Virus record (IMG/VR): IMGVR_UViG_3300045921_000143
Coordinates: 1 to 37,021 of that record
Length of the DNA stretch: 37,021 nucleotides
Reading direction: 5' to 3' (one strand)
DNA from: a virus
Positions 4,501-37,021 of the stretch are shown here, piece after piece; within the stretch, counting starts at the first letter, position 1; every line of letters begins with the position of its first letter. The notes under the pieces are model-generated. The model worked only from the letters and a program-made list of their open reading frames with translations. It made no database searches and was not told the origin of the DNA. Position numbers and translations under genes: made by a program.

Positions 4501-7500
4501 CGGGGGCACGAAGGACCGCGTCCGGTATCCGCACCTCAAGCATGTCAGTCATGTCGACCTTCTCGCCGGTGAACAGCTCATCGGTCATCGAGAAGATCAC
4601 GTCGAGCACGCTGGTATCCACCGGCTTGACAGGCTCGGGCAGGCCAAGGACCCGCCGCACCAAAGCCTTGAACGCGTCCCACGCCGACTGTACCCGTGAC
4701 CAGAGGGTCGGAGTGGTGGCAGGGGTGGGAGCCGGTACACGCTTCAAAATCGCGCGCAGCTCCAGATTCGTCCATGCCTCTGCCAAGAACTCGTCAATGG
4801 GGTTCGGCCGCCCGTCGAGCTTGGTCTTCTCAAGGCCATAGCGCACGTACTCGGTCGGTGGCAGCCCGCCCATCCTCTCCTCAAGGTACTGCCGGACGTG
4901 CTCGCGCAGGCCCGTCAGCTCAAGAGCAAACCAAGGCTTGTTGCGCAGGGCGCCGTAGGTAGCCGCGTGTGCCAGCTCATGCAGTATCGTGTAAGACCTT
5001 AGTGCGTCACCACGCGCACTGAGCCCGGTGTCCTCGTAGAACTTGAGCAGGACCGTCGGGCGCCCGTTCATGTTGCGGACGAACGCACCGGCGGCGTTCT
5101 TCTTGAGGCGGCGCCCGAAATCGTAGCGGATCACTACATCGTCGAGGTTCGACATCAGCAGGCGCTGAGCGACGGCATGGAACGGGTGACCCTTCGGTAT
5201 CTTCCGCATGAACACGTCGAGCGCATCGTTGGCCGACATGCCAGAACCGAGCTGGTTAATCGCCGCGTCAATTTCGTCGACAACCGCCGTGAACTCCTCG
5301 CTGTAAAGGTCCGGGTCGATCGCCCGCATGAACAGGTCGGTCTCCTCGTCCACCGGGGTAGACCGAGCCTTGGACTCGGCAGCGGCAAGCTGCTCACGGG
5401 CTTCAGGGCTGGCGGTCCGCCGGGCCGCGGTCACAATGCTTGGCTCCGCCGGCGGCTTGACGCTCAGCATGATCTCCTTGGCCTGCTGCTTGAGGAGCGT
5501 CTTTGCCTGCAGAGCGTCCGCCACCAGACGCACCGAACGGGACTTGTCGCCGATCTTGATGGTCCCGATGGCGGGCGTCTTGCCCTGCTGCCACACGCCG
5601 AGGGCCTGCAGGGCACGCACCATCCGCTGCTCAGCCCGCACCATGCCGTTGATCGTCGTCTTGGTGTTGCTGATACGCTTGAGGAAACGGTCAATCACCC
5701 CAGCGACACGGGAGTACAGCTCAGCCTGCTGCTGAGTGCTCGCAGGGATGACCTGCTCTGCAGTAACAGGTGTCCGCATAAAGGTCGGGGCAATGTCCGG
5801 ACGCGCCCACTGCGGCAGGGGGGCGGTGATGTCCGGGATCTCCATCTCGCGACCAAGGCGACGGAGTTCCTCCAAGGCCGTGGGGGTGTCACCGGTGAGC
5901 CTAGGCTCAACAAGCGGCACCTTCACGTCGTAACCGAATGCGCGCACGAGCGCGGTAGTATCCTTCTCCTTGCCCTTCCCCGGCTGCGCCTCAACCCCAA
6001 GCTCTTCAAGGGCCGCGAACAGCCTCTGCTCGGCGAGCCGCGCCGCTCCAGCAGTGCGAGCAGCAGCGAGGTTGTTGGAGTACCGGGTGAGCACTCCAAG
6101 CACACGACTGTTGAGGACCCGGTCACGGGCAGTCTGGGACCTTTCCTCCCGCTCAGCGGCCCTAGCGGCGACCTCCCGTGTCTCCTGTATCTGCTTGAAG
6201 ATGCTTGCAGAAGTGCCTTCACGGACGAGCGGAGAAGCGGAGACCTCCGGCGTGTACTCCTCGCCGGTAACATTGTCCACTACACCGAGCAGCGTCTCGT
6301 GCTTCAGCCGAGCCTGCTTGTCGAGGTTCTCGTCAGTGATCTTTGTGTACCGCTCCTGCCGCCGGCGCGGCTTCTGCCCCTCTGGCGGCGGCTCCGAAGA
6401 CTCCTCGTACTGCAGTACTCCGTTCTCGTCGAACGTGTAGCCAAGCTGCATGAAGTATTTCGCAGTCCGCTGCGTCAGCTCAGGAGGAGTGCGCTTGTCG
6501 CGCAGCATCCTCTGCAGGGCGTACTGAACGGAATCCATCTCGGCAACGGTGGGCTGGTAGGAAAACCAGCCGTCAACCATGAACGAGTCCGCGAACTTCT
6601 GCATGACCGGCATGACCATGTCGCGGAAGTACATGGACTTCTTCATCCCGACGTCCGTGAGCTCCCTGCCAAGCCGAACAGCAGCGACGTGCTTGGCGTG
6701 CAGGGCCGCGTCGCGGTTGGCTCTGCTACGGTCGAGCACGAACTTGCGGAACGACTGGTCGCCAGTGATCAGGCGAAGGCTGCCACGGAGTGAAGCCTTC
6801 GTGACCTTCGCGTAGCCAGCGGCGAAAGCCTCATCAGACATGCCGTTAACTTCGTCGAGGAACCCAATCAGGTCCTCGATCTGATTCAGGGCAGGCGTGG
6901 ACGGGTTGTCGGCGTTGTAGGCGAACTGTGCGTAGTCGCGCAGAGAACGCAGGTATGCCAAGGCGTACACCAGCTGGGTACGCTTGGCCCGGTCAGTTTC
7001 AGCCGGCAACACCTCTTTGCGGAACCGCGTCAGCATTTCGTCGGTCTTGGCGATAGCAGTAGCCAGTTTCGGACGCAGGCGGTTGGCCCGTGCGACCCGC
7101 TTCTTGCGCACCTCCGGCGTCTCGTCCTGCACCCGCCAAAAGTTAACCAGCACGTCAGCAGAGTAGGCAGACGTGACCTCGTAGATTTCAGCGGTCTTCG
7201 GCGTGGGCTGTGCCTTCTCAACCGCCTTGTCCATCTCCGCTATGGCGGCTTCCAAGGACAACCTCTGCAGGGGCGTGACGTCGTCACCGGCCAGCCGGAT
7301 GTTCTCGGCCACGTCGCTCAGCTTCTTGAACGCCTCGACGTACAGCTTCTTGCTGCGCGGCGCACCAAACTCGACATCCTCGGGAGCGTAGTACCCCTCG
7401 ACCATTCGCTGCTTCGCCGCCTTGCGCTCGACGGTCTTCGCGCCGGTAGGCATCTGCCCAGAGAACCCGTAGCGGTTCTTCTCGCCGGTCTGCTCGTCCC

Positions 7501-10500
7501 GCCGGAACCTCGCCTGCCGGGCGCGGCCGACGTTCTGGTTGGTCTGGTACATGACCTGAGCGCGCTGGATGATCTTGCGCTTCTGGCCCGGCGTAGTGGC
7601 ACGGTCATACAGCTGTTTGACGACATCTTTGTCGCCAGTGATGATCTGAGTTACGGAGACGTCGAACTGAATGCCCTCATTGGCAAGGGCGCTGGTCAGC
7701 TCACTGCTGAGAAGCATCTCGCCGGCTGCGGTGGCACCCTCCTCGATCTCCTGCTCAGTCAGCTTGTTGGCCTGCTTGACCTCGTCAGGAGATTCCAGTC
7801 GCAGTACACCAAGCTCCTTGAGCCGCTCAATCGGCTCGTCCTGATTCTCCTCGACAGCAGCTACTGCTTTGAGGTAGTCCTTGACGAGCTTCTGCTGAGT
7901 ATCCCTGAGCGACTCAAGCTGAGCCTCCAGCGTGGCCGCCTCATCGGACTTCTTTTTCTTGCCCTTGAGGGCAGCCAGCTGCTTCTTGACTTCTTCGATT
8001 TTGTCGTTGTTTCTGAGGACCTTGTTGCCGGCGTTGGCTACCCGTGCAGCGGCATCCTCGGGGGCACGAGCCCGGCGTGGCAAGCCAGCGATGTAGTTAA
8101 CCGCCTGAGCAAACAGCTCGTCGAGTCGGAAGAGGGCCTCGTCCTGCGCCAGCTCCTTCTCCGACGGAAGGGCGCCACGCAGGATCAGCCCCGGACGAGT
8201 GGCCAGCGTCACGAGCCGGACAAGCTCGTCCTCCGGCACGAGGTCAACAGTGTCGAACACGCTGCGACTGACGTCCTCGCCGGCAGGAATATCCAGCTGC
8301 CGCGTTTTCGCCTCCGTGGTCGCCTCTGGCGACAGCTCGGACGCTACCTCAATCGGCCGCGAGTCCACCTTCTGGGTGGCACCGCCGAGCTTGCGGGCCT
8401 TGCTGAGCGTGTCCAGAACGTCGTCAAGGCGTTCAAGCTCGATGGCGTAGCGGATGCGATCGCCGACAGTAACGAAACCCTCAACGTCATTGAGTTCGTA
8501 GATGTTCAACAAGCGGGGCTTGGCGCCCTTGCGCGGCGTCACAGACGAAGCGAGGTCAACAAGCCCACGAAGCTCCTCGAACGCATTGGCGTACAGGTCG
8601 GCATACCGGTCGTCGCGGAAAGTAAGGTCCTCCGGCGCGAAGAAACCGCCAATGCGGCGATTGGCTGCGTCACGCTGGGCCTTGGCGCTGCGAGAGAGGA
8701 GGCGGGAAGCAGCGCGGCCCGGGGTCTTGGACTTGAGGGCCTCCTGCTCCTCCTCCGGTGTAATCACACCCTTCTCAACGAGCGTGTCTGTCTGCTCGAG
8801 GAACTTGTCACGGGCCTTCGTCTCGGTCCGCTTCTTGGCGCGCTGCTTGCGCTCCTGCTCGATCAGTCGGGCACGGCGGCGGAGGGCCTGCTGAGCGGAG
8901 ATGATGACCGCCCGCTCACCGATCTCTTCAGCAAGAGCGTCGGCCTCTGCGTACGTGCCAACAAGCGTCTCACGGACGACAGCCCCGGCCGGCGTACGCT
9001 CCTGCACGACATACCTGCCAGCGAGTGGCTTCCCTGCTCCAGCACGCGTGAGGAGACCGAGGATCTCTTGCATGTCCTGACCCTCAGCCTTCAGCTCGAG
9101 GGCCATGTCGGCAGTGGGGCGGTCGCGGACAATCAGCAAGCCGCCCTTGTCGTCGAAGTTACCAAGCTGCACGCCGCGGCCACGGATGACCTCAGAGGCA
9201 CGATCGCGGTTGAGCCGGTCGATGTTGTCCCGGGACAAGTACACCCCGAGACGGTCGCTGGTCTCATCCTCCATGTCATCAAGCTGGGCCTCGATGTCAA
9301 GGAGCGGCTCGGCCGTGGGTTCGTCGGGCTGCTGCACCTTTGGGGCCGGCTCAGCCGGCTTGCGCAGTTCTGCGGTCGGCACGATGGAGAACTCCACCGT
9401 GTTGAACTCGGGGTCCATGATGTACCGGGCGAGCGCGGCCTGCGCCGAGTCGGAGTCCGGGTGCGGCTCATTCACCACCACGTTGCCGTCCTCGTCGCGC
9501 CCGATAAGCCGGTAGACGTCGGCGGTAGACCGCTGACGCCGCTGGACCATTACAGTATTTCCAGTTTCCTTGGCTCGACTCCGAAGATCCTTTGCAGCTG
9601 CTTCTGCTTCGGCAAGCGTCGGGAAAGTCTTTCGTGACTTGACTTGCCGGTCACGGTCGACAACGGAGACCTCATACTCGACCGGTGCCTGAGCGGTTTC
9701 ATCGGGCTGAGCTACCTCCTCAACGGGCTGGACACTCGGCTCCTCGGTCACCGGCGCTGGCTCAGGGCGCGGGAACGGAGCCTGATCGAAGATCCCGATC
9801 TGCCGCTCGTCAGGCAGGACGCCGGGCGGCTGTGACAGGTCGCGCTCCGGCGGCTGCGGCAGCTGGCCACGGGCGGGCGGCAGCAAGCTCATGGTGCCGC
9901 CGGGGATGGGCTGGGTCAGCTCGCGCTGCTCGGTGATCTGCCCCGGCGGCGGGCGCGGTAGGCCAAGCTGCCCCTGCCGGAGCGCCATCTGATACGGGTC
10001 GGTGCCCGGGCCGGGAGTAGACAGCTCGAAGCCGCCCTCGGGGGACGGCACGGCGGCGAACATGTCCACCTGCGCCTCGTTCGGCGCGGCGGGCGGACGG
10101 ATCTGCGGCCCCTGCTCCAACAGCTGCTGGGTGCGGGCCTCCACGGCCTGCTGCCAGCGGACCTGCGCGGCGGCGACACGGGCCTTGGCGTCCTTCGGGG
10201 CCTTGGGGGAGACGGGCTTCGGCTTGCTCTCAGCCAGCTCGGCCTCAGCCTGCGCCCTAGCGGCCGCTCGCATGGCCGCCTGATCACGCTCAGCCTGCAG
10301 CTCACCAGAGTCCTGCAGCACCACCGGTCGGCCGGTGGGGTTACCCGACCGGTCGTACGGCTGTGCAACACGTGTGGTGAACTGCTCGCGGGCGCGCAGG
10401 GCGGCGGCGACGGCGGGGTCAACTGCGTCCGCGGCGGACTGCCCGGAGGTGAACAGGTCGCCCTGTGTCTGGGTTGGTCCAACGCGGACCCCACCCGAGG

Positions 10501-11704
10501 TGGGGCCAAACACGGACTCGAACGATTCGCCGGGCGTACCGCGGTTGACTGCGGCCGGGTCCTCAGTGGAAGCCCCCGGCGGCGGAGCCTCGGACGGTAC
10601 TTCCGGGCGCTGCCGGCGACCAAGCGCCACCGAGAAGCCACCACCGATAAGGCCGCCCAGCGCCCCGCCCTCAACGGTTGCCTCAAGGACGCCCTCAGTC
10701 GCGCTGCGGGTCTTGTCATACGTCTGAGCAGCGATGTTCTGAACGTACTGCTCAACAGCCGACTGCGAGGCTTCCTGCGGCGCCTCTGCGATAGCGCCCC
10801 GGCCAAGCCGCTGAAGCGCAGTGCCCGCCGCACCTTCCCCCACAATAGGTGTCCAGAGACGCCCAGCTGCGGAGGAGATAGCTCCTACGATCAGGCCGGC
10901 AAGCAGCGGGCGAGCACCCTGAGCCTCGGCCGCGAGGGCCTCACGCGCCTCGGACTCGGTCATCGTCCTGCGCAGCTCGGCGTAGCGAGGAGACTGCATC
11001 AGCTCCTCTTCACGGGCACCAGCCACCTCCTCGTCAATCTGGTTGGCGAGGGCGCCCATCGAGATGGTCGCTTCGGACGCACCTAGGTAGCCGATAGCCG
11101 CGGGCGAGGCACCCATGCGGAACATGATGATGGACGGCAGCAGAGTAGCAAGCGACGACGGGACGGCCTGCACCAGCTTCGTACCGACAGTGGCGGCTGT
11201 CTCCAACGGATCGTCGGACCGGAACACCGACTTGGTCGGATCGAGCGTGAGCCACTGACGAGAGACGCGATCGACAACCTCCGGGCGGAGAGTTTTGTAC
11301 ATCTCCTCACGGATGTTACCAAGGTACTGCCGGGTGGCACGGAACGGGGTGTTGAGGCCCATCTCCGGAACAACGCCCGGGAAAGCCTCACGAGCCTTGC
11401 GCTCACCCTGTCCGACCAGATACTCGCCGGCACCGGCCAACGCCTCGCCGACACCAACAAGCTCTGCCCCGAACATAGTAGGAAGGCCGCCTTCGCCCTC
11501 GGGCGGGCGGGGCTTGATGCCGCCACCAAGCTCCCAAAGAGGTGGCAGACCACGGTCGGCCGGGGAAGCGCCGGCACTGTACTGTTCGATGAGGGCATCC
11601 GCCCTGCCCTGAATGTCGGGCAGGGGCGGAAGCTCGAGCGGGTCAAGTGCTCGGAGAGGGCCGAAGTCCTTCTCGTACTGCCGGCGGATGTCGGACATGG
11701 TCAC
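1454..11704 (-). CDS. Giant internal-virion / large polyvalent-type protein, 3416 aa, with zincin motif
   Basis: This one gene fills 28% of the window. The GTG at 11704 overlaps the upstream stop as GTGA; an ATG at 11698 is an alternative start, and no clear ribosome site is seen. In order: hydrophobic Gly/Ala-rich segments at about 170-225, 265-295 and 335-362; a Pro/Ala/Gln-rich linker at about 365-690; long charged helical regions with a Lys/Glu coiled coil near 1225-1300; a metallopeptidase motif HELAH (H2242, E2243, H2246) with a possible third ligand in DEFLAEAW (E2305 or E2309); a hydrophobic region near 2865-2900 (TPAYWMTNATQPW); and another near 3115-3150. Giant proteins of this plan in podophages (N4-, DarB- or PLxRFG-like) are carried in the virion and ejected into the host. 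That role is inferred here from architecture and from its place after two internal-virion-type genes. Confidence 0.75.
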   Translation of the reverse strand: MTMSDIRRQYEKDFGPLRALDPLELPPLPDIQGRADALIEQYSAGASPADRGLPPLWELGGGIKPRPPEGEGGLPTMFGAELVGVGEALAGAGEYLVGQGERKAREAFPGVVPEMGLNTPFRATRQYLGNIREEMYKTLRPEVVDRVSRQWLTLDPTKSVFRSDDPLETAATVGTKLVQAVPSSLATLLPSIIMFRMGASPAAIGYLGASEATISMGALANQIDEEVAGAREEELMQSPRYAELRRTMTESEAREALAAEAQGARPLLAGLIVGAISSAAGRLWTPIVGEGAAGTALQRLGRGAIAEAPQEASQSAVEQYVQNIAAQTYDKTRSATEGVLEATVEGGALGGLIGGGFSVALGRRQRPEVPSEAPPPGASTEDPAAVNRGTPGESFESVFGPTSGGVRVGPTQTQGDLFTSGQSAADAVDPAVAAALRAREQFTTRVAQPYDRSGNPTGRPVVLQDSGELQAERDQAAMRAAARAQAEAELAESKPKPVSPKAPKDAKARVAAAQVRWQQAVEARTQQLLEQGPQIRPPAAPNEAQVDMFAAVPSPEGGFELSTPGPGTDPYQMALRQGQLGLPRPPPGQITEQRELTQPIPGGTMSLLPPARGQLPQPPERDLSQPPGVLPDERQIGIFDQAPFPRPEPAPVTEEPSVQPVEEVAQPDETAQAPVEYEVSVVDRDRQVKSRKTFPTLAEAEAAAKDLRSRAKETGNTVMVQRRQRSTADVYRLIGRDEDGNVVVNEPHPDSDSAQAALARYIMDPEFNTVEFSIVPTAELRKPAEPAPKVQQPDEPTAEPLLDIEAQLDDMEDETSDRLGVYLSRDNIDRLNRDRASEVIRGRGVQLGNFDDKGGLLIVRDRPTADMALELKAEGQDMQEILGLLTRAGAGKPLAGRYVVQERTPAGAVVRETLVGTYAEADALAEEIGERAVIISAQQALRRRARLIEQERKQRAKKRTETKARDKFLEQTDTLVEKGVITPEEEQEALKSKTPGRAASRLLSRSAKAQRDAANRRIGGFFAPEDLTFRDDRYADLYANAFEELRGLVDLASSVTPRKGAKPRLLNIYELNDVEGFVTVGDRIRYAIELERLDDVLDTLSKARKLGGATQKVDSRPIEVASELSPEATTEAKTRQLDIPAGEDVSRSVFDTVDLVPEDELVRLVTLATRPGLILRGALPSEKELAQDEALFRLDELFAQAVNYIAGLPRRARAPEDAAARVANAGNKVLRNNDKIEEVKKQLAALKGKKKKSDEAATLEAQLESLRDTQQKLVKDYLKAVAAVEENQDEPIERLKELGVLRLESPDEVKQANKLTEQEIEEGATAAGEMLLSSELTSALANEGIQFDVSVTQIITGDKDVVKQLYDRATTPGQKRKIIQRAQVMYQTNQNVGRARQARFRRDEQTGEKNRYGFSGQMPTGAKTVERKAAKQRMVEGYYAPEDVEFGAPRSKKLYVEAFKKLSDVAENIRLAGDDVTPLQRLSLEAAIAEMDKAVEKAQPTPKTAEIYEVTSAYSADVLVNFWRVQDETPEVRKKRVARANRLRPKLATAIAKTDEMLTRFRKEVLPAETDRAKRTQLVYALAYLRSLRDYAQFAYNADNPSTPALNQIEDLIGFLDEVNGMSDEAFAAGYAKVTKASLRGSLRLITGDQSFRKFVLDRSRANRDAALHAKHVAAVRLGRELTDVGMKKSMYFRDMVMPVMQKFADSFMVDGWFSYQPTVAEMDSVQYALQRMLRDKRTPPELTQRTAKYFMQLGYTFDENGVLQYEESSEPPPEGQKPRRRQERYTKITDENLDKQARLKHETLLGVVDNVTGEEYTPEVSASPLVREGTSASIFKQIQETREVAARAAEREERSQTARDRVLNSRVLGVLTRYSNNLAAARTAGAARLAEQRLFAALEELGVEAQPGKGKEKDTTALVRAFGYDVKVPLVEPRLTGDTPTALEELRRLGREMEIPDITAPLPQWARPDIAPTFMRTPVTAEQVIPASTQQQAELYSRVAGVIDRFLKRISNTKTTINGMVRAEQRMVRALQALGVWQQGKTPAIGTIKIGDKSRSVRLVADALQAKTLLKQQAKEIMLSVKPPAEPSIVTAARRTASPEAREQLAAAESKARSTPVDEETDLFMRAIDPDLYSEEFTAVVDEIDAAINQLGSGMSANDALDVFMRKIPKGHPFHAVAQRLLMSNLDDVVIRYDFGRRLKKNAAGAFVRNMNGRPTVLLKFYEDTGLSARGDALRSYTILHELAHAATYGALRNKPWFALELTGLREHVRQYLEERMGGLPPTEYVRYGLEKTKLDGRPNPIDEFLAEAWTNLELRAILKRVPAPTPATTPTLWSRVQSAWDAFKALVRRVLGLPEPVKPVDTSVLDVIFSMTDELFTGEKVDMTDMLEVRIPDAVLRAPAAAILEKHVGISKWAKRIRDWAVPPLGAMSMEQIRDLYASGFQGPQGNPLTDYMTAYFKRAAENSRLMERAEKIVQRWTTLQQKNPAAAVELSRVATEASLYRVSPGEAVTSLRNKHLITPAGQQRWAELNARYRAMPSEYRQMYDDLQAYYRNALAEESTLILQNALRSVLATGAGAPLDIETFEDTFTLKKLEGITPEKLNEMLGDLATPDMKATINQLARLPEMRQGDYFPLMRYGDFVVYASRETERKTFTNNKEAQAYAATKRRDDPTLDVGVFAVDDKFVVRVTEKEFSTAESRTEAEEIRQRMVETYGADAVSDVQRRSQFAQDAVIQSNSALASILGRLEGNAAAQAAIKNFYLRSLSDSSFRKHEIRRKNRLGVNYDIQHRNFANYAKQSAYYTSQLQYGWQLGRHLRDMDEFAKRTRGTDDISAVRRGDVVNELKKRDEQMAELPDIVKIVRRGTEFAQFISLTTPAYWMTNATQPWMITLPWLAARYGWRSAGAALGMAQNLIKSRILEAVVDSKGGIAAARKLTGKVAAEQAFSVIDQIIDQIRNDSSLPDGRGEKYIAMLTELRRNNVIDLSWIAELRDIAEGQDLSPTQRLLDASRIMAHLTEVNNRVLVAIAAYDLKYNEVVEAAGEVEADRQATLYAKTAVSTTQFNYGGANKPRWFQTNGPLGAGAPLVTQFMQWPQHIYAMMGMNLYKWTKGDKEAKRIFLNVLATHTLAAGVAGSMFQPIKWAAGLVLALFGDDDEPYDAASAVSGQAFDWWFQKNLAAITGSPALAEAATKGIPALLGVDLSKRLSMGSIFMADLRPENADSFLGSAVTSFGGPWVGIGVQWGRGFQQVMEASANGDVRGFFRGLEFVMPKIARDFLRAGRFATEGITSTRGDVLIPADDVSPLELFTQSLGLTPTAVSRFYDKREYLTRRARLASEHKQEIVTRILKADPSERGKLISEAVQHNKMYPDAPISIAGLIQAMRNKREREVRTQTYGANLNDRQAAVFGREADFLR

Positions 11705-28017: not shown

Positions 28018-28266
28018 TCAGCAATTCCAAGCCCGAAGGCTTTTGTTGATCCTACTATTTGGGTCTCGAGCCGTCTTTGCACTCGTATTCTTGGCCTTCA
28101 TGCCTTTCATGCGAGCACAGAAGGAATCGCGCCGCTTACCGCCTTCGGGCTGCGGCGGCTTAAGGTTGCCACCAGTAGAGCTGTTGTAGGAGGCCCGCCC
28201 CTTGGCGTTGAGCCCGCCCTTGGGGTTCTTGCCTTCTTTGCGCTGCCATGCAGGGGTCTTGGCCAT
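28018..28266 (-). CDS. DUF6321-like small basic protein, 82 aa
   Basis: ATG 28266 overlaps the portal stop (TGATG). The protein is unusual and recognisable: MAKTPAWQRKEGKNPKGGL, SFCARMKGMKAKNTS, SKTARDPNSRINKSL type ends (here ARDPNSRINKSLRAWNC). This pattern is conserved in many phage small proteins annotated DUF6321, whose function is unknown. It is Lys/Arg-rich with two Cys, and could bind DNA or a negatively charged virion protein. It follows the portal directly and is likely packaged or used in head assembly. Confidence 0.8.
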   Translation of the reverse strand: MAKTPAWQRKEGKNPKGGLNAKGRASYNSSTGGNLKPPQPEGGKRRDSFCARMKGMKAKNTSAKTARDPNSRINKSLRAWNC

Positions 28267-30383
28267 CAGCCACCCATCCTCATACCGGGGCGTCCGGTAG
28301 GTCCAACAAACTCACTCTCGACAGGGCGCCGTACCTCCTCGGGGGCAGCGCGGGCTTCCGCGGGGCTGGGCTGTTGCCCGGGGGGGATCATACCCGGCGG
28401 GCCGGCGCCGGGGGGAGGCCCACCGGGAGGTACGGCATTCATCTGGGCGGCCAGCTCCTCGTCAGACGGCACGGTGCGCTCGTGGTCCAGCCCAAGATTC
28501 TGGGCAACGCTGCGCAGTACGTTGGCTCGTCCTTGCGGGCCGACAATCGCCATGTCGATCGGGTTAGCGGTCAGCTGCAGGAACTCCAGCTGCCGCATCC
28601 GGTCCTGCTCACGCTTCACGGCATGGTTGACGCCACGCACGTCGATGACCTCGTCGCCGCGGAGGAGGCCGGGCTGTGTCAGCATCACCATGTCGTACAA
28701 GTACGTGATGAGCGGCTCGACGACGTCACGGTCGATGGTGGCAGCAACGTTCTGCAGGGTCTTGCTGGCGTTGCCCATGAGCATGGCCAAACCAGACGCC
28801 GTGCGCCCCGCACCTCCGACCCGCTCGTTACCGAGCATGTAACGCGGCAGGGAGCTAATCTCGTCAGCCATGATGGAGAACTTCTCGTAGACCATCAGCA
28901 AGTCCTGAGAGTTCGAGCTGGGCTGGAAAAACTCGACCGGGCTGCGGCCGGAAGACGCAGCGTTAGGGTCGTAGCTGACCTCCCACCGCTTCCACGGGTA
29001 CAGAGACATCTCAGCGCCCGGCAGGAGAGCCTCACGGTTGATGACCACTTGCGGGCCAGAGGAGATGGACAGGTTATTGACGAGCGAGCGGACCGTGGCG
29101 TTACAGACGGTCTGCACGTCCTCGAGAAGCTCAGGCAGGCCGGCACCGATCAAGCCGCCCGGGATCTTCTCGAAGGACGAGATGTAGTAGGGGGCTCGCT
29201 GCGTCGTGTAGGGGTTGATCTGAACCTTGATGACCCAGCGGTCGATGAGCCACGCCGTGACGAAGTACTCCTCAACCTCGTCAGGCACCTTCTCCTCGGG
29301 CATCCCCCAGTCGCGCAACAGGCGGCCAGAAACAAAGCCGGTGAACTCGGCGCAGTCAATCAGCGTCGACGATGTAGCTCGGCCCCACCTCTCACGCTCC
29401 TCGAGATCGCGTCGCTCAGTCTCCACGGAACTCCACCACTCGGAGAGCCCGCTGTTCCAGAACCGCTCCAACACCTGCGTAATGGCATCGTCGTCATACC
29501 CGGGAACTCCTCTCAGCTGTGTCAGGTCAGCCCTCGAGAGACGGATGCGCTCGATGAAGTTGGCGTGCTGAACACGGCTGGCACCGGGCGACCAGTACAG
29601 GTCGAAAGGCGACACACGCTCCCAGAACATCTTCGGGGCGCGCTGTTGCATGGGCGCGCCATTCTGCCACTTGGTCTGAACGATGTTCCTGACTACCGGA
29701 CCCTTGATGACCGCGTACGGGAAGATTGGCAGGTCGATGAGGAACTCAGCGAGGGCCTCGTAGTAGCCGCCCTCTACCAGCAAATCGTTGAGCACACTGG
29801 TCGAGGCCGCGGCCTCCTCAACGGCTTTCTTCTTGCTCGCACGCTTGGCAGCCTTGCGCAGCTGCATCACGCGATCGTCAATCATCTGCTGGTCGACCGG
29901 CTGACCGCTCTGCTGGAGGGTAGCAACCTCGGTGTTTACCAGCTCGTCGATGCTTCGGTTGATGTCGTCAGGGATCACCGGCTCTGGGGTGGGCGTCAGC
30001 GTCCAGTGCGGCTCGGGACCGAGGTACACGTCACGCAGCAGGGCGGTGGCAGCGCGGCACTTGGTAGCGGTCAAGCGGGCGTAGACCTCGCTGCCACCAA
30101 ATTTCTTGATCTCGGTCAGGATATGCGGCGGGTACTGCCCACGGTAGGTCCGGAGGGAGTCGATCAGACGCTGGGCAATGCCCTCGGCGTCGCGGAAGTT
30201 CCGCATCTCTGCCAGCTGCCCGCGAACGAACGACGCAAGCTGGGAAAGACTGGCCTCTTCCTCCTGTGCAGCGGCGGCGGCTTCAGCCTCAGCACGGTCA
30301 CGGTCAGCCAGCTGCTGGGGCGACACCACCCGCAACAGAGAACCGGTCTGGGTAGCAACGGGGATAGCCGACGGAGTAGCCAT
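28266..30383 (-). CDS. Portal protein, 705 aa
   Basis: The frame is open to 30449, but ATG 30383 (MATPSAIPVATQ) avoids overlap with the plus-strand gene; MGLMAT at 30392 is a close alternative. The length and plan fit large P22-like portals: N-terminal helices, a long helix region (PDDINRSIDELVNTEVATLQ), the wing and stem (EFFQPSSNSQDLLMVYEKF, EISSLPRYMLGNERVG, GRTASGLAMLMGNASKTLQ), and a barrel/C-terminal part that is Pro/Gly-rich (PPGGPPPGAGPPGMIPPG). The dodecameric portal is the packaging channel and head-tail vertex. It lies downstream of the large terminase with the inverted small-terminase gene between. Confidence 0.88.
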   Translation of the reverse strand: MATPSAIPVATQTGSLLRVVSPQQLADRDRAEAEAAAAAQEEEASLSQLASFVRGQLAEMRNFRDAEGIAQRLIDSLRTYRGQYPPHILTEIKKFGGSEVYARLTATKCRAATALLRDVYLGPEPHWTLTPTPEPVIPDDINRSIDELVNTEVATLQQSGQPVDQQMIDDRVMQLRKAAKRASKKKAVEEAAASTSVLNDLLVEGGYYEALAEFLIDLPIFPYAVIKGPVVRNIVQTKWQNGAPMQQRAPKMFWERVSPFDLYWSPGASRVQHANFIERIRLSRADLTQLRGVPGYDDDAITQVLERFWNSGLSEWWSSVETERRDLEERERWGRATSSTLIDCAEFTGFVSGRLLRDWGMPEEKVPDEVEEYFVTAWLIDRWVIKVQINPYTTQRAPYYISSFEKIPGGLIGAGLPELLEDVQTVCNATVRSLVNNLSISSGPQVVINREALLPGAEMSLYPWKRWEVSYDPNAASSGRSPVEFFQPSSNSQDLLMVYEKFSIMADEISSLPRYMLGNERVGGAGRTASGLAMLMGNASKTLQNVAATIDRDVVEPLITYLYDMVMLTQPGLLRGDEVIDVRGVNHAVKREQDRMRQLEFLQLTANPIDMAIVGPQGRANVLRSVAQNLGLDHERTVPSDEELAAQMNAVPPGGPPPGAGPPGMIPPGQQPSPAEARAAPEEVRRPVESEFVGPTGRPGMRMGG

Positions 30384-30413
30384 TAGGCCCATCCTGTGGT
30401 TAGAATCGTGTCC

Positions 30414-30920
30414 ATGGAAACCGAATCCACCGAAGTAGCCCTCTCCCAAGAGGTGGCTCTACCGAGAATCGAAGCGTCCGTCGGGCTAGAGCACCTCTCG
30501 GCCACAATCTGCGCTGAACTGGCCGCCGGGCTGTCAGAGCCGGCGGACATCCGGGCGAAGTATAACATCAGTGAGGAGCAATGGGACACCCTGCGCCACT
30601 CACCGGTATTCCGGGCCATGATGCGGGAGGCCGTCGAGAAACTCGCCGGGGACTCCAACGCCGGCCGGCGCATCACGATGAAAGCCGAAATCGCCCTCGA
30701 GGACTCAATCCCCACGATATACAGCATGGTACATAGCCGGGAGGTGCCGGCCGCCTCACGGCTGGACGCCGCCAAGATTCTGGCGACCCTCGCCAACCGC
30801 ACCGGCAAGACGGCGGAAAACAACACCAATAGCACCGGGTTCGCAGTGAACATCCACATCGACACCGGTGAGAAGAAGGGCGTGATCATCAACGGTGAAT
30901 CAAGTCCACCCACGGACTGA
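30414..30920 (+). CDS. Terminase small subunit-like protein, 168 aa, inverted
   Basis: This is the only plus-strand gene supported. ATG 30414 (METESTEVALSQ) is the chosen start; an in-frame GTG at 30396 would add six residues, and neither has a good ribosome site. Features: an N-terminal helix region with LEHLSATICAELAAGLSEPA, DIRAKYNISEEQWDTLRHSP resembling a helix-turn-helix, a helical middle (VHSREVPAASRLDAAKILAT) and a beta/flexible C-terminus. The plan fits small terminase subunits, which form rings that bind DNA and start packaging. It is convergent with the large terminase (C-termini overlap 21 bases) and divergent from the portal. The opposite minus ORF is implausible. Confidence 0.72.
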   Translation: METESTEVALSQEVALPRIEASVGLEHLSATICAELAAGLSEPADIRAKYNISEEQWDTLRHSPVFRAMMREAVEKLAGDSNAGRRITMKAEIALEDSIPTIYSMVHSREVPAASRLDAAKILATLANRTGKTAENNTNSTGFAVNIHIDTGEKKGVIINGESSPPTD

Positions 30921-32321
30921 CGGCGGCTGCTGCGGCTGCACCGGATTCAGTTTTGCCATAATCCTACCCACGCTGTTCGAGCTGACGCTCAGCGCCATGT
31001 ACTGAAGGCAGTCGGCCAAGTCCGACCACGGATGGGTCTTCTCAGGCCTGTCCTCAAGATCGCCGGTCTTCTTCCGCCGATAGCGGTACCCATGCTTCAG
31101 GGCGTGGACGAGCGTCGGGCACCCGGGGGCGGAAATCATCAACGCAGGGCCGCCGTCAATCTGCTGCAGGAACAGCTGCTCCACTGCCCTGAGCCGCGGG
31201 TCGATGTCGTTGGTCACAGCCGGGAACGCGTCAAAGCCGAGGCGCTTGAGGGCCTTGATCGGGGACTCCTCACCAATCGGTCCCTTGGCGTTGCCGGCCG
31301 GATCGCACACCACGAAGATGCGGCGCCCCATGTAGTGCTGGTAAATCAACGGGCGCGTCTCCGTAATGGTGAACTGCTCCAGCCCTTTGTCGGTGCTGAA
31401 CAGCTCCCGCATGATCACCAACCGCCCACGATTATCGACCTGACCGAACAGGCAGGCGGGAGTGCGACCGAAATCGTGTCCAATCATGATCGGGATATGG
31501 TCCTGCGGCTCGATGTACTCGTCGACCACGTGGAACTCGGGCTTGAAACTAGCTCTCCACACCGCCTGCCCACTGAGCGACTTGCCGTATTTCGCGTGAA
31601 CGTGGACATCAACCCAGTCAGAGCTGTTGTTCGCTACAAGCAAGTCATAGTACCCGTCCGGCAGGTTCTCGACATTCTCGGCGTTCGGCTCAGTACCGCC
31701 CGGCTGGCGGAAGATCGTCCAGTTAGGCGGCTTGTCCTTTTCCAGCTTGTGGTACCACTCGCTATCTTCGTCGGGAGGGTTCGACTCAGCAACGATGCCC
31801 TTCCACGAGCAGGGCACGATGGCTTTGGCGGGGAATCGCCCAAGACGGCCAGAAAGGGCGTCGATGAGCGACGGAGAAACCTCACGGAACTCGGACACCC
31901 ACGCTCCGGTCAGGTTCAGCGAGAGAAGCCGCTGTTGGTCTTCCTTGGTGTCGAGCGGGATGAGCATCCAGTCCGAGACCACTTTGGTGCCGTCCGGCAG
32001 GGGGGTACGGATCTGGATGGTGTTCTCGGCGACCTTGAAGGTCATAATTGGCCCAAGCCACAGCTGGATGTCCGCCAAGCACGTCTGACGCAGCTGCGGG
32101 AGCGTGTTGCGGATGATCGCAAACCGGGTGAGCCGTCGCCCACGCGCGTCCGGCGCCTGCATCTTGGCCCGACGCAGCAGCTCCATGAAACAGCCGGCCG
32201 ACTTGCCTGAGCCAACCGGACCGATGATGAGTCGAATGAACGACTCGTCAAGCATGAACCGCCCGACAGTCGGAGGGGTGACGTAATTGAGGACCGACGG
32301 GTTAGGGTCGTTGGAACTCAC
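30900..32321 (-). CDS. terL: Terminase large subunit, 473 aa
   Basis: GTG 32321 overlaps the previous stop (GTGA) and has GAGG seven bases upstream. The ATPase has Walker A GPVGSGKS (34-41), a Walker B-type segment LTGAWVSEFREV (about 137-148) with acidic E144/E147, and the ATPase coupling region near GIVAESNPP. The nuclease domain shows HDFGRTPA, then VVCDPAGNAKG and the last acidic motif DLADCLQYM. This is the packaging motor, which cuts concatemers and pumps DNA through the portal. The C-terminus is Pro/Gln-rich and short. Length is near the family norm. Confidence 0.93.
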   Translation of the reverse strand: MSSNDPNPSVLNYVTPPTVGRFMLDESFIRLIIGPVGSGKSAGCFMELLRRAKMQAPDARGRRLTRFAIIRNTLPQLRQTCLADIQLWLGPIMTFKVAENTIQIRTPLPDGTKVVSDWMLIPLDTKEDQQRLLSLNLTGAWVSEFREVSPSLIDALSGRLGRFPAKAIVPCSWKGIVAESNPPDEDSEWYHKLEKDKPPNWTIFRQPGGTEPNAENVENLPDGYYDLLVANNSSDWVDVHVHAKYGKSLSGQAVWRASFKPEFHVVDEYIEPQDHIPIMIGHDFGRTPACLFGQVDNRGRLVIMRELFSTDKGLEQFTITETRPLIYQHYMGRRIFVVCDPAGNAKGPIGEESPIKALKRLGFDAFPAVTNDIDPRLRAVEQLFLQQIDGGPALMISAPGCPTLVHALKHGYRYRRKKTGDLEDRPEKTHPWSDLADCLQYMALSVSSNSVGRIMAKLNPVQPQQPPSVRGWT

Positions 32322-34405
32322 CCGTAATCCTCGACAGCGTAGTAACCGTTAAAAGCCGCCACGACCGCAGTAGTGGTAGTCGTACCTGTATTGGCCATCA
32401 CAAGCGGACCAAGACCGGTATCCGCGGGCGGTAATTTGGAAGTCACGTTGAACCTTGTGTAGACCGCCCCGGTCTCCAGATTCACAAGCTCGAGATCGGC
32501 GCGGCTGCCACCGGGCGGGACGTATATCCGTAGCTCCAGCAAAGCGTCGGCAAGGCTGGTCTTGGCCACGCCGGTGTCGGTCTTGGTCGCAGTACCAGAG
32601 CCGTTATTGTGCATCCACTGAAGATTGGTATCGCCTTGATCCGCACCTACGCCAATGCAATCGAGTAACGCTGACGGCTCGCCGGACACGTTAACGGTCG
32701 TATGCATGCCCATAAACAGGCGCTGATCCGAGCGCACGCTGGGCCAGCCACCGCGGATCATGGCAAAGAACCCGCCAGCGGCCGAGTTACCGCTGCAGCT
32801 GACGTAGACCACATACTGCACACCGTAGTTACTCAGACCAACAGACCCGGTAGCGTTAGCTGACGCAGCGGACGTACCAGTCCGGCGCATAACCTGCCCA
32901 AGCAGTGTCGTGGCGGTAGGAGAGCGATTGGAAGTCGCTTGCGTACCAAGACCGGACACACCAGCAATACCCTGCGTATCCGGTGACGCGCCGACGTACA
33001 TCCGCATCCAACGCTCGCGCTTGCCAATCTGCCCGTTGAGCATGGCAAACGGTAGCCCACTGGCAGGGCGGAACGAGGGCAGAGACAAGGCTCCGTAGTC
33101 GTGGCCGTACACACGGGTTGACCCGACGGCAGGAGCAGACGGTACGGACACCGAGTCAAGACGAGCATGGGCGGTGAAGCGGGGATTGCCGCCGTCGTTG
33201 ACCAGCCCGGACAGACCACCGAAAGACCCCGCGTTGTTGAACTGGACTTGGGTATTCGAGCCGCCCGGCGACCCGCCGCTACCAACGAAGGGAACCCATG
33301 TCGTGCCGTTAAACGTCCGCCATTCGTTAGCGGCGCTGTTGAAGTACAGATCACCTATCTCGCCACCGGGCGGGTTACCCGTCAGGGGCACGAAGCGGAC
33401 CTGTCCGTGCCGCTTGACCGTAAATCGCTCTACCCCTTGGGTGACAAACCCGAAGCGGGTGGTATCTGACCGATAAATGCCGGTGTCGGGGTCAGTCTCG
33501 AATGAGTACGCAGGCGCGCCTACTGACCCGTTCTGGTTCCTGATCTGCATCCGCACACGGATGTTGCTGGTCTGCCAGAGCATACGGTCGGTGCCACCAA
33601 CCGTCAGGTTCATCTCGTTGGCGTTCGGGGAGTAGAACCCAAGGTTCGCCCGCCCGTTGAACGAGAGGCCGGGCGCAGCCGCACTACCAAGCGCAGCCTG
33701 CAGCTGGTTGAGCGTACGAATAACTCCGGTGCCGGTGGTAGACAGGTCGATGTTGGCGCCAGAAATCGTGTTCTGAATGTCTAGGTCATCGTCGGTCGTG
33801 CTGGTGTAACCAACCCTGCCCTTGGTCACCGAGAAGTCCGAAGTCGTGAAACGTATGTGGCACCCGCCAGTAGTGGTAACCGCAGGCGCCTGAATGCCGA
33901 TCCACGAGGCCGTCGCGCTACCAAACACGAACGCCCGGTCGATGAATGAGGTCGGGTCGCCCGGTGCGCCAGTCCGCAGCTTGATGCGGTGGTCCTCGTA
34001 GCTGGTGATGGACATCGTATTGTCCCCCACCGCCGTAAACCCGATGACCCCCTTGGTGGCCCCGCCAGCCGAGACCGGCTCACGGAACCTGATGAACGTG
34101 TTGGCGTACGGCTCGGCAGTCTGGTCGCTGCGGAGGACTATCTCAGGGCTGAACTCGTTCGAGCTGCCACCACCACCACCAGAGCCCTGCACGACCAGCT
34201 CCATCTGATCGCCGTTGATCTTGATGAGCCCGAGGTCTTCCAGCTCCTCAAGACGGACGAACGACGGGCGCGGGTCGCGAACGCGCCGCTCGTGAATGTT
34301 GAGCGACGAGATGATGAGCTGCAACGCAAGCGTGTGCGACCGAATATCGTCCGTAACAGTCGGCCGCGAGGGGTACGCCCGGGAGGTTTTGATCTTTACC
34401 GCCAT
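32318..34405 (-). CDS. Appendage / tail fibre-like protein, 695 aa
   Basis: ATG 34405 comes 12 bases after the previous stop, with no good ribosome site. A helical N-terminus (1-60, SHTLALQLIISSLNIHERRV) is followed by a Gly-rich linker (GSGGGGGSSN, about 74-83) and repetitive beta structure: GTGVIRTLNQLQ, then PAYSFETDPDTGIYRSDTT and VERFTVKRHGQVRF, a pattern of phage fibre repeats. The C-terminal half is beta-rich with a Gly/Ser-rich surface. Inferred: a long tail fibre or head decoration with a virion-binding N-terminus. It lies between the glycosyltransferases and the terminase. It could be a target of the glycosyltransferases, which is a guess from position. Confidence 0.65.
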   Translation of the reverse strand: MAVKIKTSRAYPSRPTVTDDIRSHTLALQLIISSLNIHERRVRDPRPSFVRLEELEDLGLIKINGDQMELVVQGSGGGGGSSNEFSPEIVLRSDQTAEPYANTFIRFREPVSAGGATKGVIGFTAVGDNTMSITSYEDHRIKLRTGAPGDPTSFIDRAFVFGSATASWIGIQAPAVTTTGGCHIRFTTSDFSVTKGRVGYTSTTDDDLDIQNTISGANIDLSTTGTGVIRTLNQLQAALGSAAAPGLSFNGRANLGFYSPNANEMNLTVGGTDRMLWQTSNIRVRMQIRNQNGSVGAPAYSFETDPDTGIYRSDTTRFGFVTQGVERFTVKRHGQVRFVPLTGNPPGGEIGDLYFNSAANEWRTFNGTTWVPFVGSGGSPGGSNTQVQFNNAGSFGGLSGLVNDGGNPRFTAHARLDSVSVPSAPAVGSTRVYGHDYGALSLPSFRPASGLPFAMLNGQIGKRERWMRMYVGASPDTQGIAGVSGLGTQATSNRSPTATTLLGQVMRRTGTSAASANATGSVGLSNYGVQYVVYVSCSGNSAAGGFFAMIRGGWPSVRSDQRLFMGMHTTVNVSGEPSALLDCIGVGADQGDTNLQWMHNNGSGTATKTDTGVAKTSLADALLELRIYVPPGGSRADLELVNLETGAVYTRFNVTSKLPPADTGLGPLVMANTGTTTTTAVVAAFNGYYAVEDYG

Positions 34406-34417
34406 GCGCCAAGTCTA

Positions 34418-35122
34418 TCAGAAGTAGTGGTCAAGCACCCACGGATGGGTCTGGCGGACATCCTCGTCCCACGGCTTGCGGAGCCCGTGGAACGAAACAA
34501 GCCGCGCACCCTTCGGAAGCCGGCCGATATTACGGAAAGTCCTGAACGCGTGCACCCCGTCTTTGTCGGTCCACGTCGCTTCGTTCGGGCCGAGGATGTA
34601 GTTCAGCCACGCTTGGTCAGACCCGGCAAAGCCGGCTTCTCTGGCAGCGGAGGGGGACTTCACGGGGTCGAACTCTGTCCACACCTGCGGGCGGGCATCG
34701 TAGTTCATCATCCACATCGTGCCGTTGTAGATCGTGTTCTTGAACGGCCACGCCCAGATGACGAAGTCCTCCTCACGCTCGAAAAGCGGCGTCAGGTCAC
34801 CAGTGATGACCACGTCGAGGTCAATGCTCACGAACCTTTTCGCGATCGTCGCCGCGACCGCTGGATCAAAAATGCGTAGACGACGATAGCAGGAAGGCTG
34901 AAGAGGACCATGAAGAGACCTAAGATCAGCATGGTCGCTCCAAATAGGCACAGTGCGCACGCCCGGAAGAAAGCCTCCTTGGCGGTCCGTAATGCAGACA
35001 AAATCGAACGGCTTCGCATAGTGCCGGGCCACCATCCTGAACAGCGTGTTGACGTGCGTCTGGCCGAACTGCGAGCGGTAGCGCGTCAGTGGCGTCCAGA
35101 GCCAGCATACTACGGTAATCAC
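34418..35122 (-). CDS. GT-A-like glycosyltransferase, 234 aa (paralogue of the gene at the right edge)
   Basis: GTG 35122 overlaps the previous stop (GTGA) and has GAGGAG six bases upstream. The opening MITVVCWLW and KPFDFVCITD, then YRRLRIFDP and SIDLDVVITGD with the metal-binding DxD (D101, D103), and the end VSFHGLRKPW fit the GT8-like sugar transferases found in many phages and bacteria. It should use a nucleotide sugar. The C-terminal third (GSDQAWLNYILGP) matches the cut-off gene at 36804-37021. Codons 64-86 end in T in 17 of 23 cases, unlike the rest of the gene, and this is where a second frame is open. Confidence 0.78.
   Translation of the reverse strand: MITVVCWLWTPLTRYRSQFGQTHVNTLFRMVARHYAKPFDFVCITDRQGGFLPGVRTVPIWSDHADLRSLHGPLQPSCYRRLRIFDPAVAATIAKRFVSIDLDVVITGDLTPLFEREEDFVIWAWPFKNTIYNGTMWMMNYDARPQVWTEFDPVKSPSAAREAGFAGSDQAWLNYILGPNEATWTDKDGVHAFRTFRNIGRLPKGARLVSFHGLRKPWDEDVRQTHPWVLDHYF
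34828..35019 (-). CDS. Candidate overlapping small membrane protein inside the glycosyltransferase gene, 63 aa
   Basis: A second minus-strand frame is open for 63 codons inside the glycosyltransferase gene. The product would have a hydrophobic segment at about 26-52 (ATMLILGLFMVLFSLPAIVV) and a basic tail RSRRRSRKGS, the shape of a small one-span holin-like or regulatory peptide. In the core stretch its codons end mostly in G or C, as in the other genes here, while the host frame there ends in T. That is the pattern expected if both frames are selected. The start is weak (GGTGG nine bases upstream), and an internal ATG at 34932 would give 34 residues. It may still be chance. Confidence 0.35.
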   Translation of the reverse strand: MRSRSILSALRTAKEAFFRACALCLFGATMLILGLFMVLFSLPAIVVYAFLIQRSRRRSRKGS

Positions 35123-35298
35123 GTCGCTCTCCTCAACACGTGTCGCACAACCTCAGCAACAGCCTTGCGTTCGTACTTCACAAGCACCTGCAGCGCCCCG
35201 CGCAAGTACGACTTTGCCTGAGCATCACCCTGCACCGCCGCCCGGCACTTGGCCTTGAGCACGTCGCCGTCAGGGAGGCAGGTGAACGGGTCCTTCAT
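35119..35298 (-). CDS. Small hypothetical protein between glycosyltransferases, 59 aa
   Basis: ATG 35298 overlaps the GT-D gene's stop (ATGA), and its TGA overlaps the next GTG (GTGA). The two four-base overlaps and the filled gap argue for a real coupled gene. The product MKDPFTCLPDGDVLKAKCRA is followed by a helical, basic end (LQVLVKYERKAVAEVVRHVL). It has no ribosome site and probably depends on re-initiation. No family recognised. It may be an accessory to the glycosyltransferases. Confidence 0.65.
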   Translation of the reverse strand: MKDPFTCLPDGDVLKAKCRAAVQGDAQAKSYLRGALQVLVKYERKAVAEVVRHVLRRAT

Positions 35299-36062
35299 AC
35301 CCGCAATTTACCGTCGAAGTACAGGACGTTGTAGTGCTTGCTGAGAAACTCGTGCATCTCCTCCATCGTGACGTCAGCCGGTCGCCGCAGTACAACCCGG
35401 ACCGCCGGGCCGTTGTCCATGGAGGCCAGCTTGAGCAGGAACCCGCCGGCAGAGCCAAGGTCAACCGCATGGATGCCAGCAGCCGCCAGCCGCGCCGCGA
35501 TGCACGTCGCCGCAGGACCACATGACAGCACGACGAGACTGGCGCCCTGCACCTGCTTGATGAGATTGTCAGCAACCTTGTAGGACTGGTGCGACGGGCA
35601 GACGACGTGGGTCACAGAAGCCGCAGTCATGCTGATCAGAGCAAGCAGGGAGTTACCCTTCTCGCACACGACGTGTACGTCTTTGCCTGCCCACAGCTGC
35701 TGTACAAGGGTCAAATACTCCTTGCACAGGATCCACGGCGAGCTGTCGGGCCGACTCACGAACGCTGACCCGTAGACCCGGCCCATGTCGACGTACTCTG
35801 CGAACGACGTCATGTGCCGCACCCACCCGTCCAGCTTCGGCCCGTCCTTGTGCATGGTCGGGATAGCCGGCAACAGGTTAGGTGGCGGGTGTTTCAGGAT
35901 GTGCCGCAGCTCGGCAGCAAGCTCCTCGTTGGCCGGCTCACGCACCTGCGAGCTACCACGCATGAGCTTAAGCTCGCCATCACCAAAGCGGGACAGCGAC
36001 ACCCCGCCTACCACCCTCTTCATGGTCTCGAACTCGTCGAGAACTTTCGGCCATGTCCTCAC
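35295..36062 (-). CDS. GT-D (DUF1792-like) glycosyltransferase, 255 aa
   Basis: Start chosen at GTG 36062, which overlaps the previous stop (GTGA) and has GGGAGAGG about eight bases upstream; the frame is open to ATG 36080. The N-terminal region has SLSRFGDGEL (22-31), the hallmark of the GT-D fold family with its DxE metal motif (D28, E30). Further parts include SAFVSRPDSSPW, DVHVVCEKGNSLLA and, near the end, AVDLGSAGGFL, where the family has a conserved DLG. GT-D enzymes known in Gram-positive bacteria add a hexose in protein O-glycosylation. Here the acceptor is unknown. It is flanked by two other GT genes. Confidence 0.75.
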   Translation of the reverse strand: MRTWPKVLDEFETMKRVVGGVSLSRFGDGELKLMRGSSQVREPANEELAAELRHILKHPPPNLLPAIPTMHKDGPKLDGWVRHMTSFAEYVDMGRVYGSAFVSRPDSSPWILCKEYLTLVQQLWAGKDVHVVCEKGNSLLALISMTAASVTHVVCPSHQSYKVADNLIKQVQGASLVVLSCGPAATCIAARLAAAGIHAVDLGSAGGFLLKLASMDNGPAVRVVLRRPADVTMEEMHEFLSKHYNVLYFDGKLRV

Positions 36063-36811
36063 AGCGGTACCCTCTCCCATGTAAACCGCAACGGTATCGG
36101 CTTCGGCAGCTTCTCCCGGTTCTTCCGCCGCCGGATCTCACTGTACCGACTCGTGTCCCGACTGAGCACGGTCTCGGACGCGTCAGGGACGGAGTGGGTA
36201 GTATGCACATGCAACGGCATGGACGCCGGCAGGAGCCACGGCTCGGCAATAGCCGTCAGGTCCCGAAGGAATGGCGTCCCGCCACCCAGCGACCCGGAGT
36301 AGTCCTCGTCGTAGCCACCAGCCCGCCAGTACAGCTCTCTGGTGACGAGGTATGAGTCCACGTGTGGGTGGATCTCCACGAACGTCGCAGCCGGGTCAGC
36401 AGCGTCCTTCCTGCGCGTGAAGTCAGCCGCCCCAACCCGCCACCGGCAGAACCGGTACCACCGCTCCGGGTCAAGCTCGACGTTGAGGACGGCTGCCATG
36501 GTCTCAGGCGGCACCGTGTGGTCAACGTCGACGTGCAGGAGCCACGGCGTCTTGGCTACGTAGGCCCCAAGGTTACGCGCCCCACCCCGGTTCCACGGAA
36601 TGTCCTCCTTGATGCGGTACAGCTCCACCGGCAGGGGGCGGACCATGCACCGCAGGGCCTCCTCGGCCGTCATGTCAGGGCTGCCGTCGTCAACCACGAT
36701 GATGCGGAGTCGCCTGAGCACTGCCGGGTCGTACTGCTCCCAGACGTCGACATGCTTCCTGAGCATCCAGAAGTTCCGGTAGTACGGGATGATGAGGGAG
36801 ACGTCATTCAC
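36059..36811 (-). CDS. GT2-family (GT-A) glycosyltransferase, 250 aa
   Basis: GTG 36811 overlaps the previous gene by eight bases and has AAGGA eight bases upstream. Typical GT2 sequence: DVSLIIPYYRN at the N-terminus, IIVVDDGSPD with DDGS (41-44), NRGGARNLGAYVAK, and the metal-binding HVDVDH (D95, D97). The region at 150-200 (ETVLSRDTSRY is later, GGYDEDYSGSLGGGTPF before it) holds the GGxDE-like acceptor/base part. The C-terminus is basic. It transfers a sugar from a nucleotide donor to an unknown acceptor. No membrane segments, so it is soluble. Confidence 0.82.
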   Translation of the reverse strand: MNDVSLIIPYYRNFWMLRKHVDVWEQYDPAVLRRLRIIVVDDGSPDMTAEEALRCMVRPLPVELYRIKEDIPWNRGGARNLGAYVAKTPWLLHVDVDHTVPPETMAAVLNVELDPERWYRFCRWRVGAADFTRRKDAADPAATFVEIHPHVDSYLVTRELYWRAGGYDEDYSGSLGGGTPFLRDLTAIAEPWLLPASMPLHVHTTHSVPDASETVLSRDTSRYSEIRRRKNREKLPKPIPLRFTWERVPL

Positions 36812-37021
36812 GCCAGTAGTCCTTGATCCATGGGTACCGTTTCTGGGCCTGCCGGCACCACGGCTTGAGCGCCCCCGGGGTGCTGACCATGGTTGTCCCC
36901 GGCGCCGGGCCGTCAGGCGACAGCCACTTGAGGTACGCCAGCCCGTCGGCCGCAGTGAACCCCGCCGTGGGTGGGTACAACCGGTAGGACATCCAGCCTT
37001 GGTCCGACCCGAAGCACCGCG
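36804..37021 (-). CDS. Glycosyltransferase, partial (N-terminus outside window)
   Basis: The frame is open from the right edge with no need of the internal ATG at 36992. The visible C-terminal 71 residues begin CFGSDQGWMSYRLYPP and continue to the end PWIKDYWRE. They match the C-terminal third of the GT at 34418-35122 (GSDQAWLNYILGP, KPW, and a closing PW). So it is the end of a second member of that family. Its TGA overlaps the next gene's GTG by eight bases. The catalytic domain is not in the window. Confidence 0.72.
   Translation of the reverse strand, partial: RCFGSDQGWMSYRLYPPTAGFTAADGLAYLKWLSPDGPAPGTTMVSTPGALKPWCRQAQKRYPWIKDYWRE

Follow-up and report, generated by a model that had tools for sequence, protein, structure and literature searches.

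What does a phage build with a row of glycosyltransferase (GT) genes placed among its structural genes, and on which acceptor? The question is raised by the right edge of a 37,021-base IMG/VR virus record (IMGVR_UViG_3300045921_000143), the whole of which we call the window. Its phage is podovirus-like, with an SU10-type portal, a large terminase (TerL), a major capsid protein (MCP) and tail genes on the minus strand. The GT cassette lies at 34418-37021 on the same strand, reading leftward from the end of GT8b through GT2, GT-D, a 59-aa ORF and GT8a to a fibre gene and the terminase. Three relatives extend the view: L003, of which 9.3 kb is 98.9% identical to the window, and the near-complete G002 (59.5 kb) and G003 (58.6 kb), 88-92% identical across most of it. 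The features, with the evidence for each, are these.

36804..37021, minus strand: GT8b, C-terminal 71 aa, its start past the window edge (full gene in L003, G002 and G003)
36059..36811, minus strand: GT2 glycosyltransferase, 250 aa (PF00535, PF10111, family consensus)
35295..36080, minus strand: GT-D (DUF1792) glycosyltransferase, 261 aa (PF08759)
35119..35298, minus strand: 59-aa ORF, function not assigned (kept in L003 and G002)
34418..35122, minus strand: GT8a, GT8-type glycosyltransferase, 234 aa (phrog_1962, model, motifs)
32318..34405, minus strand: fibre-like gene, a neighbour and not a conserved part (phrog_28766 tail fibre, E 1e-8)
30900..32321, minus strand: TerL, downstream neighbour in the same run (phrog_2, E 1e-25)
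28266..30383, minus strand: SU10-type portal, marking the late structural region (PF23899, E 4e-9; phrog_332, E 3e-55)

In reading direction GT8b overlaps GT2 by 8 nt, GT2 overlaps GT-D by 22 nt, and both GT-D with the 59-aa ORF and that ORF with GT8a overlap by 4 nt. A 12-nt gap separates GT8a from the fibre gene, which overlaps TerL by 4 nt. A sequence-only reading of this DNA had described an island of at least four GT genes and three enzyme types beside a fibre gene, with overlapping stops and starts, made as a set. All four enzymes are present, the overlaps are borne out, and the genes form a single continuous run into the terminase, which confirms that observation and supports joint production, as far as expression can be read from gene position. 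The earlier gene list had the four enzymes and their types right but overlooked the 59-aa ORF between GT-D and GT8a, for which family searches gave no match.

Between the window and G002, dN/dS is 0.068 for GT8a, 0.074 for GT-D and 0.119 for GT2; the reference genes TerL and MCP give 0.032 and 0.091, and the 59-aa ORF 0.205. The complete cassette GTs are under purifying selection, like TerL and MCP, and these ratios together with conservation rule out chance ORFs or decayed genes for them. Two other ORFs of the window deserve mention. One, at 30396-30920 on the plus strand (phrog_36773, of unknown function), separates portal from terminase and is read opposite to the late genes; it is kept in relatives and is possibly a small terminase-like protein. 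The other, at 1454-11704, encodes a giant polyvalent-type protein of 3416 aa that contains an LPD39 domain.

A search to the right of the window for more sugar genes had been suggested, and it found them. Beyond the window edge G002 and G003 carry the full GT8b and an FkbM-type methyltransferase (gene calls outside the window came from a simple codon-model caller), so the order in G002 is FkbM-type methyltransferase, GT8b, GT2, GT-D, 59-aa ORF, GT8a, fibre and TerL. The methyltransferase has 213 aa and weak similarity to FkbM in Pfam (E 0.002, below the cut-off), and matches the FkbM family of the cassettes with E 5e-6. The small genes further right in G002 and G003, inspected by eye, included no more recognised sugar genes. 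The methyltransferase is intact in G002 and G003, but L003, the window's nearest relative, has just a truncated remnant of it (L003:4779-4973).

GT-D matches PF08759 well above the cut-off of 27 (E 1.2e-22, 81.3 bits). A profile of 38 phage GT-D members finds the DUF1792 structures 4pfx/4phr (E 1.8e-41) and 5v4a (E 2.5e-39). R31 and GDGE (33-36) are invariant; the latter, present in all 38 phage members, we take to be the conserved acidic D-x-E site. Such an enzyme had been thought unexpected in a phage late region. With 76 IMG/VR loci found by GT-D alignment it is not exceptional, yet among cultured phages it occurs in three records only, all S20/SI1, and in the literature searched no paper connects GT-D with phages. 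A GT-D search of Alcaligenaceae and Rhodobiaceae genomes gave no match, but control genomes were equally silent, so the result carries no weight. Two contigs have a single ORF with two GT-D domains fused in tandem (L119:1135-2460 and L120:6853-8178).

GT2 is assigned by PF00535 (E 3.3e-11, 43.8 bits, cut-off 23.3) and PF10111 (E 1.9e-9), and has the motifs VVDDGSP, DVDH (DxD) and GGYDE. A pattern scan for close relatives returned five loci only; the wider family was obtained from clustering of neighbouring ORFs. In contigs L027 and L028 GT2 and GT-D are one fused protein, which ties the two activities together.

GT8a matches the glycosyltransferase family phrog_1962 (E 2e-17). Its AlphaFold model has a pLDDT of 93, and the best of the PDB matches listed for it are glycosyltransferases, with few exceptions GT8 enzymes such as GlyE, glycogenin and LgtC (E about 1e-9). 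The active-site residues are all present: DxD (D101/D103), Asn133, D169-Q170 and HxGxxKPW, motifs whose conservation was compared across 113 relatives. Against Pfam GT8 (PF01501) it scores 11.9 bits, under the cut-off of 24.3, and 6 of 50 relatives match that family weakly. We call it GT8-type on predicted fold and motifs, not a Pfam GT8 member. The window fragment of GT8b has no family match by itself. The gene is complete in the three relatives, where it is 37-38% identical to GT8a. DxD and DQ are retained, with Ala at the Asn position and Pro at the His position; in the window fragment, likewise, DQ is kept and the His of HxGxxKPW is Pro. Most of the GT8b subfamily is variable at the same two positions, and GT8b may take a different donor or have an altered activity.

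How far does this set of genes extend beyond the window lineage? The GT8 alignment found 369 relatives in IMG/VR, of which 80 were kept. Clustering of neighbouring ORFs, a count that depends on fetching loci by GT8 or GT-D similarity, gave GT2 at 113 loci, GT8 at 108, GT-D at 86, DUF115-like at 70 and FkbM at 53, in every case on the strand of the GTs; the same clustering returned portal, connector, protease, capsid and tail genes. IMG/VR records are often fragments. Among 24 GT-D clusters flanked by 4 kb on each side (GT-D-fetched loci only, clustered at 80% identity), genes on the same strand within 8 kb included GT8 in 23/24, GT2 in 22/24, DUF115-like in 18/24 and recognised structural genes in 15/24. 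The DUF115-like family was considered as a GT by fold but could not be assigned: its model is confident, but no PDB match has E <= 0.001.

The cassettes sit between portal/MCP and connector/tail genes, or beside TerL/portal, inside the structural gene clusters of two unrelated phage architectures, podovirus-type and siphovirus-type. Rhizobium phage RHph_TM27A is syntenic with the window lineage in terminase, portal, capsid and replication genes, and tblastn over 50 kb of it found no island genes; syntenic Rhizobium phages lack the GT genes. Tetraselmis viridis virus S20 and the window phage have the GT genes alone in common. Taken together, these two comparisons indicate that the set moves, and its recurrence in varying combinations across dozens of other uncultured phages makes it probably a transferable kit. 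Two cases are linked to hosts. A contig of Alcaligenaceae strain CAII-56 has a prophage-like region in which a minimal DUF115-like/GT8 set accompanies terminase, portal, capsid and tail genes. The 67-kb Bradyrhizobium elkanii plasmid pUSDA31-2 (NZ_CP126028.1, 79-12712) carries portal, GT9, two methyltransferases, a GT8-like gene and tail genes, and looks like a phage-plasmid in which portal and tail tube flank the GT9/methyltransferase/GT8-like set.

We now turn to the acceptor. The fibre at 32318-34405 had been proposed as the first protein to examine for glycans, and a specific glycosylation of the tail fibre that tunes host binding is suggested by several features: the gene follows GT8a by 12 nt in the window lineage, it has Ser/Thr-rich stretches, and alignment between relatives fails in its middle part. 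The Ser/Thr-rich stretches proved uninformative as a pointer to the acceptor. TerL adjoins the cassette in sister podovirus-type contigs too, and in six of these (L028, L060, L061, L114, L119 and L120) GT8a abuts it with no intervening fibre gene, while siphovirus-type cassettes adjoin capsid/connector genes. On this evidence the fibre is not a preferred acceptor, nor a conserved partner of the cassette; it was probably gained or kept in the window lineage only, to judge from these gene orders, and we give specific fibre glycosylation only a small chance. The non-aligning part of the fibre is 33255-34180, where DNA-level alignment to G002 and G003 fails though both flanks align, which suggests a variable or exchanged segment.

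The adjacent structural gene varies and none is present beside every cassette, so the neighbourhood cannot name the acceptor. In the siphovirus-type contig L026 (4525-5451) and 40 related contigs, a family mostly with collagen repeats adjoins the portal just before the GT cassette. Members have as many as 70 GXY repeats, and the family weakly matches CBM_5_12. As a candidate acceptor it was set aside: Ser/Thr are scarce in its repeats, which mostly resemble GKDGRDG, and a long collagen run is absent from the window.

If the acceptor is not a virion protein, the enzymes might act on the cell or on DNA. GT families of such kinds serve surface polysaccharides in bacteria as well, and there are well-known examples of phage GTs acting on the host surface. 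A change of envelope glycans such as lipopolysaccharide or capsule, comparable to Gtr serotype conversion and serving to alter the receptor or exclude superinfecting phages, would also fit the weak GtrB-like match of GT2 (phrog_841, E 0.004). We searched for marker genes in 26 records: S20 and 25 viral records from phages that carry the cassette or are related to carriers. Positive controls were detected. GtrA and the flippase Polysacc_synt were each found in 0/26, a count to be read with the possible incompleteness of the records. Strong membrane segments are rare among cassette proteins, with none in the window GTs, and placement in the late structural run is ill-suited to superinfection exclusion. 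Altered host surface sugars, the other function first offered for the set, are thereby weakened, and we regard them as unlikely.

Glycosylation of phage DNA bases against restriction, as in T4-like phages, is the best-known role of phage GTs, and the GTs of DNA-hypermodifying viruses are described as diverse (Pyle et al. 2024, as given in the available text of PMC12619734). The search for this role covered the thymidylate synthase/hydroxymethylase-type route; a gene of the PF00303 type occurred in 0/26 of the same records, again possibly incomplete, with controls detected. The largest early genes of G002 included no such gene, and the enzymes whose solved structures come closest have proteins or polysaccharides as acceptors. 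This role is improbable. The absence of GtrA, Polysacc_synt and thymidylate-synthase-type genes from these records, together with the scarcity of strong hydrophobic segments, favours a late cytoplasmic protein acceptor.

Three kinds of known system bear comparison. In cluster O mycobacteriophages (Corndog/Firecracker) an O-methyltransferase and three tandem GTs lie between portal and protease (PMC4351075), and PMC11600133 reports, at second hand, that capsid and tail tube are modified by these enzymes. We ran the comparison on Firecracker. Like that module, the cassette has tandem overlapping GT genes and a methyltransferase (here in G002) inside the structural cluster, and gp35 of cluster O is homologous to the cassette GT2 family (E 1e-10). 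The other cluster O enzymes, gp33, gp34 and gp36, are not detectably related to those of the cassette: in that module GT-D is absent and GT8 not detectable, the remaining GTs are GT25-like or without assignment, and the methyltransferase belongs to TylF/Methyltransf_24 where the cassette's is FkbM. Host and phage type differ as well. With one homologous enzyme and the rest unrelated, the cassette would by analogy work like the cluster O module, and appears to be a different variant, built mostly from other enzyme families.

The streptococcal systems for O-glycosylation of the serine-rich-repeat proteins Fap1 and PsrP resemble it in enzymes. Bacterial GT-D adds glucose to the growing O-glycan on Fap1, sequentially and fused to a GT-A partner (PMC5063993), and GlyE (GT8) extends the PsrP glycan (PMC12656782). 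The GT-D family is common to both; dGT1 is GT-D plus GT-A, and in phages, too, GT-D goes with a GT-A enzyme; some have the two fused, in the reverse domain order (GT2 first). The best fold match of GT8a is GlyE of the PsrP system. The streptococcal system differs in being bacterial and chromosomal, with a secreted adhesin as acceptor and initiation by Gtf1/2; no initiator of that type was recognised in the cassette.

Two viruses carry similar sets. S20 (NC_020840) has homologues of GT8a (44-45%), GT2 (about 37%) and GT-D (36%), an FkbM and another methyltransferase, and its GT cluster lies between MCP and neck genes, but it is siphovirus-type and its set is larger, with DUF115-like genes. Chlorovirus PBCV-1 encodes a methyltransferase together with cytoplasmic GTs that have a GT8-like domain among them; it is a large DNA virus of algae that makes an N-linked glycan, and GT-D is not mentioned in the available text (PMC7826918).

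The reading we favour, and consider likely, is that the cassette is a transferable set of soluble, late-expressed GTs that builds a glycan on a virion protein. A glycan on the virion had been one of the functions first proposed, and it stands as the best reading of the gene evidence. What we infer is the late timing (from gene position), the virion protein as acceptor, the sequence of the steps, the sugars used and the benefit gained. Soluble cytoplasmic GTs would be made late, from the run that also carries terminase and probably the remaining virion genes. They would draw on nucleotide sugars of the host and act in sequence to build a short glycan on the virion protein, GT2 and GT-D probably taking consecutive steps and GT8a and GT8b adding further sugars; in relatives with the FkbM-type methyltransferase the glycan would probably be methylated.

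A wider proposal is more tentative, and we would put it somewhat short of even: that a mobile GT-D/GT8/GT2 kit with FkbM-type methyltransferases is widespread among uncultured phages from the environment, in two or more architectures, and that it places an O-glycan of several sugars, in some cases methylated, on capsid or tail proteins, following the same principle as adhesin glycosylation in bacteria. In the literature searched virion glycosylation is documented for mycobacteriophages, and the cassette supplies new glycosyltransferases. Candidates in cultured material are the Alcaligenaceae prophage-like region and the Bradyrhizobium elkanii phage-like plasmid. If the proposal is true, protein glycosylation of phage particles would be common in environmental phages and would move as a gene kit. 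Glycosylation would then affect the recognition of phage particles and their binding to surfaces, and near-identical phages would differ in their glycan coats according to whether the methyltransferase is kept or decayed and how the GTs are shuffled.
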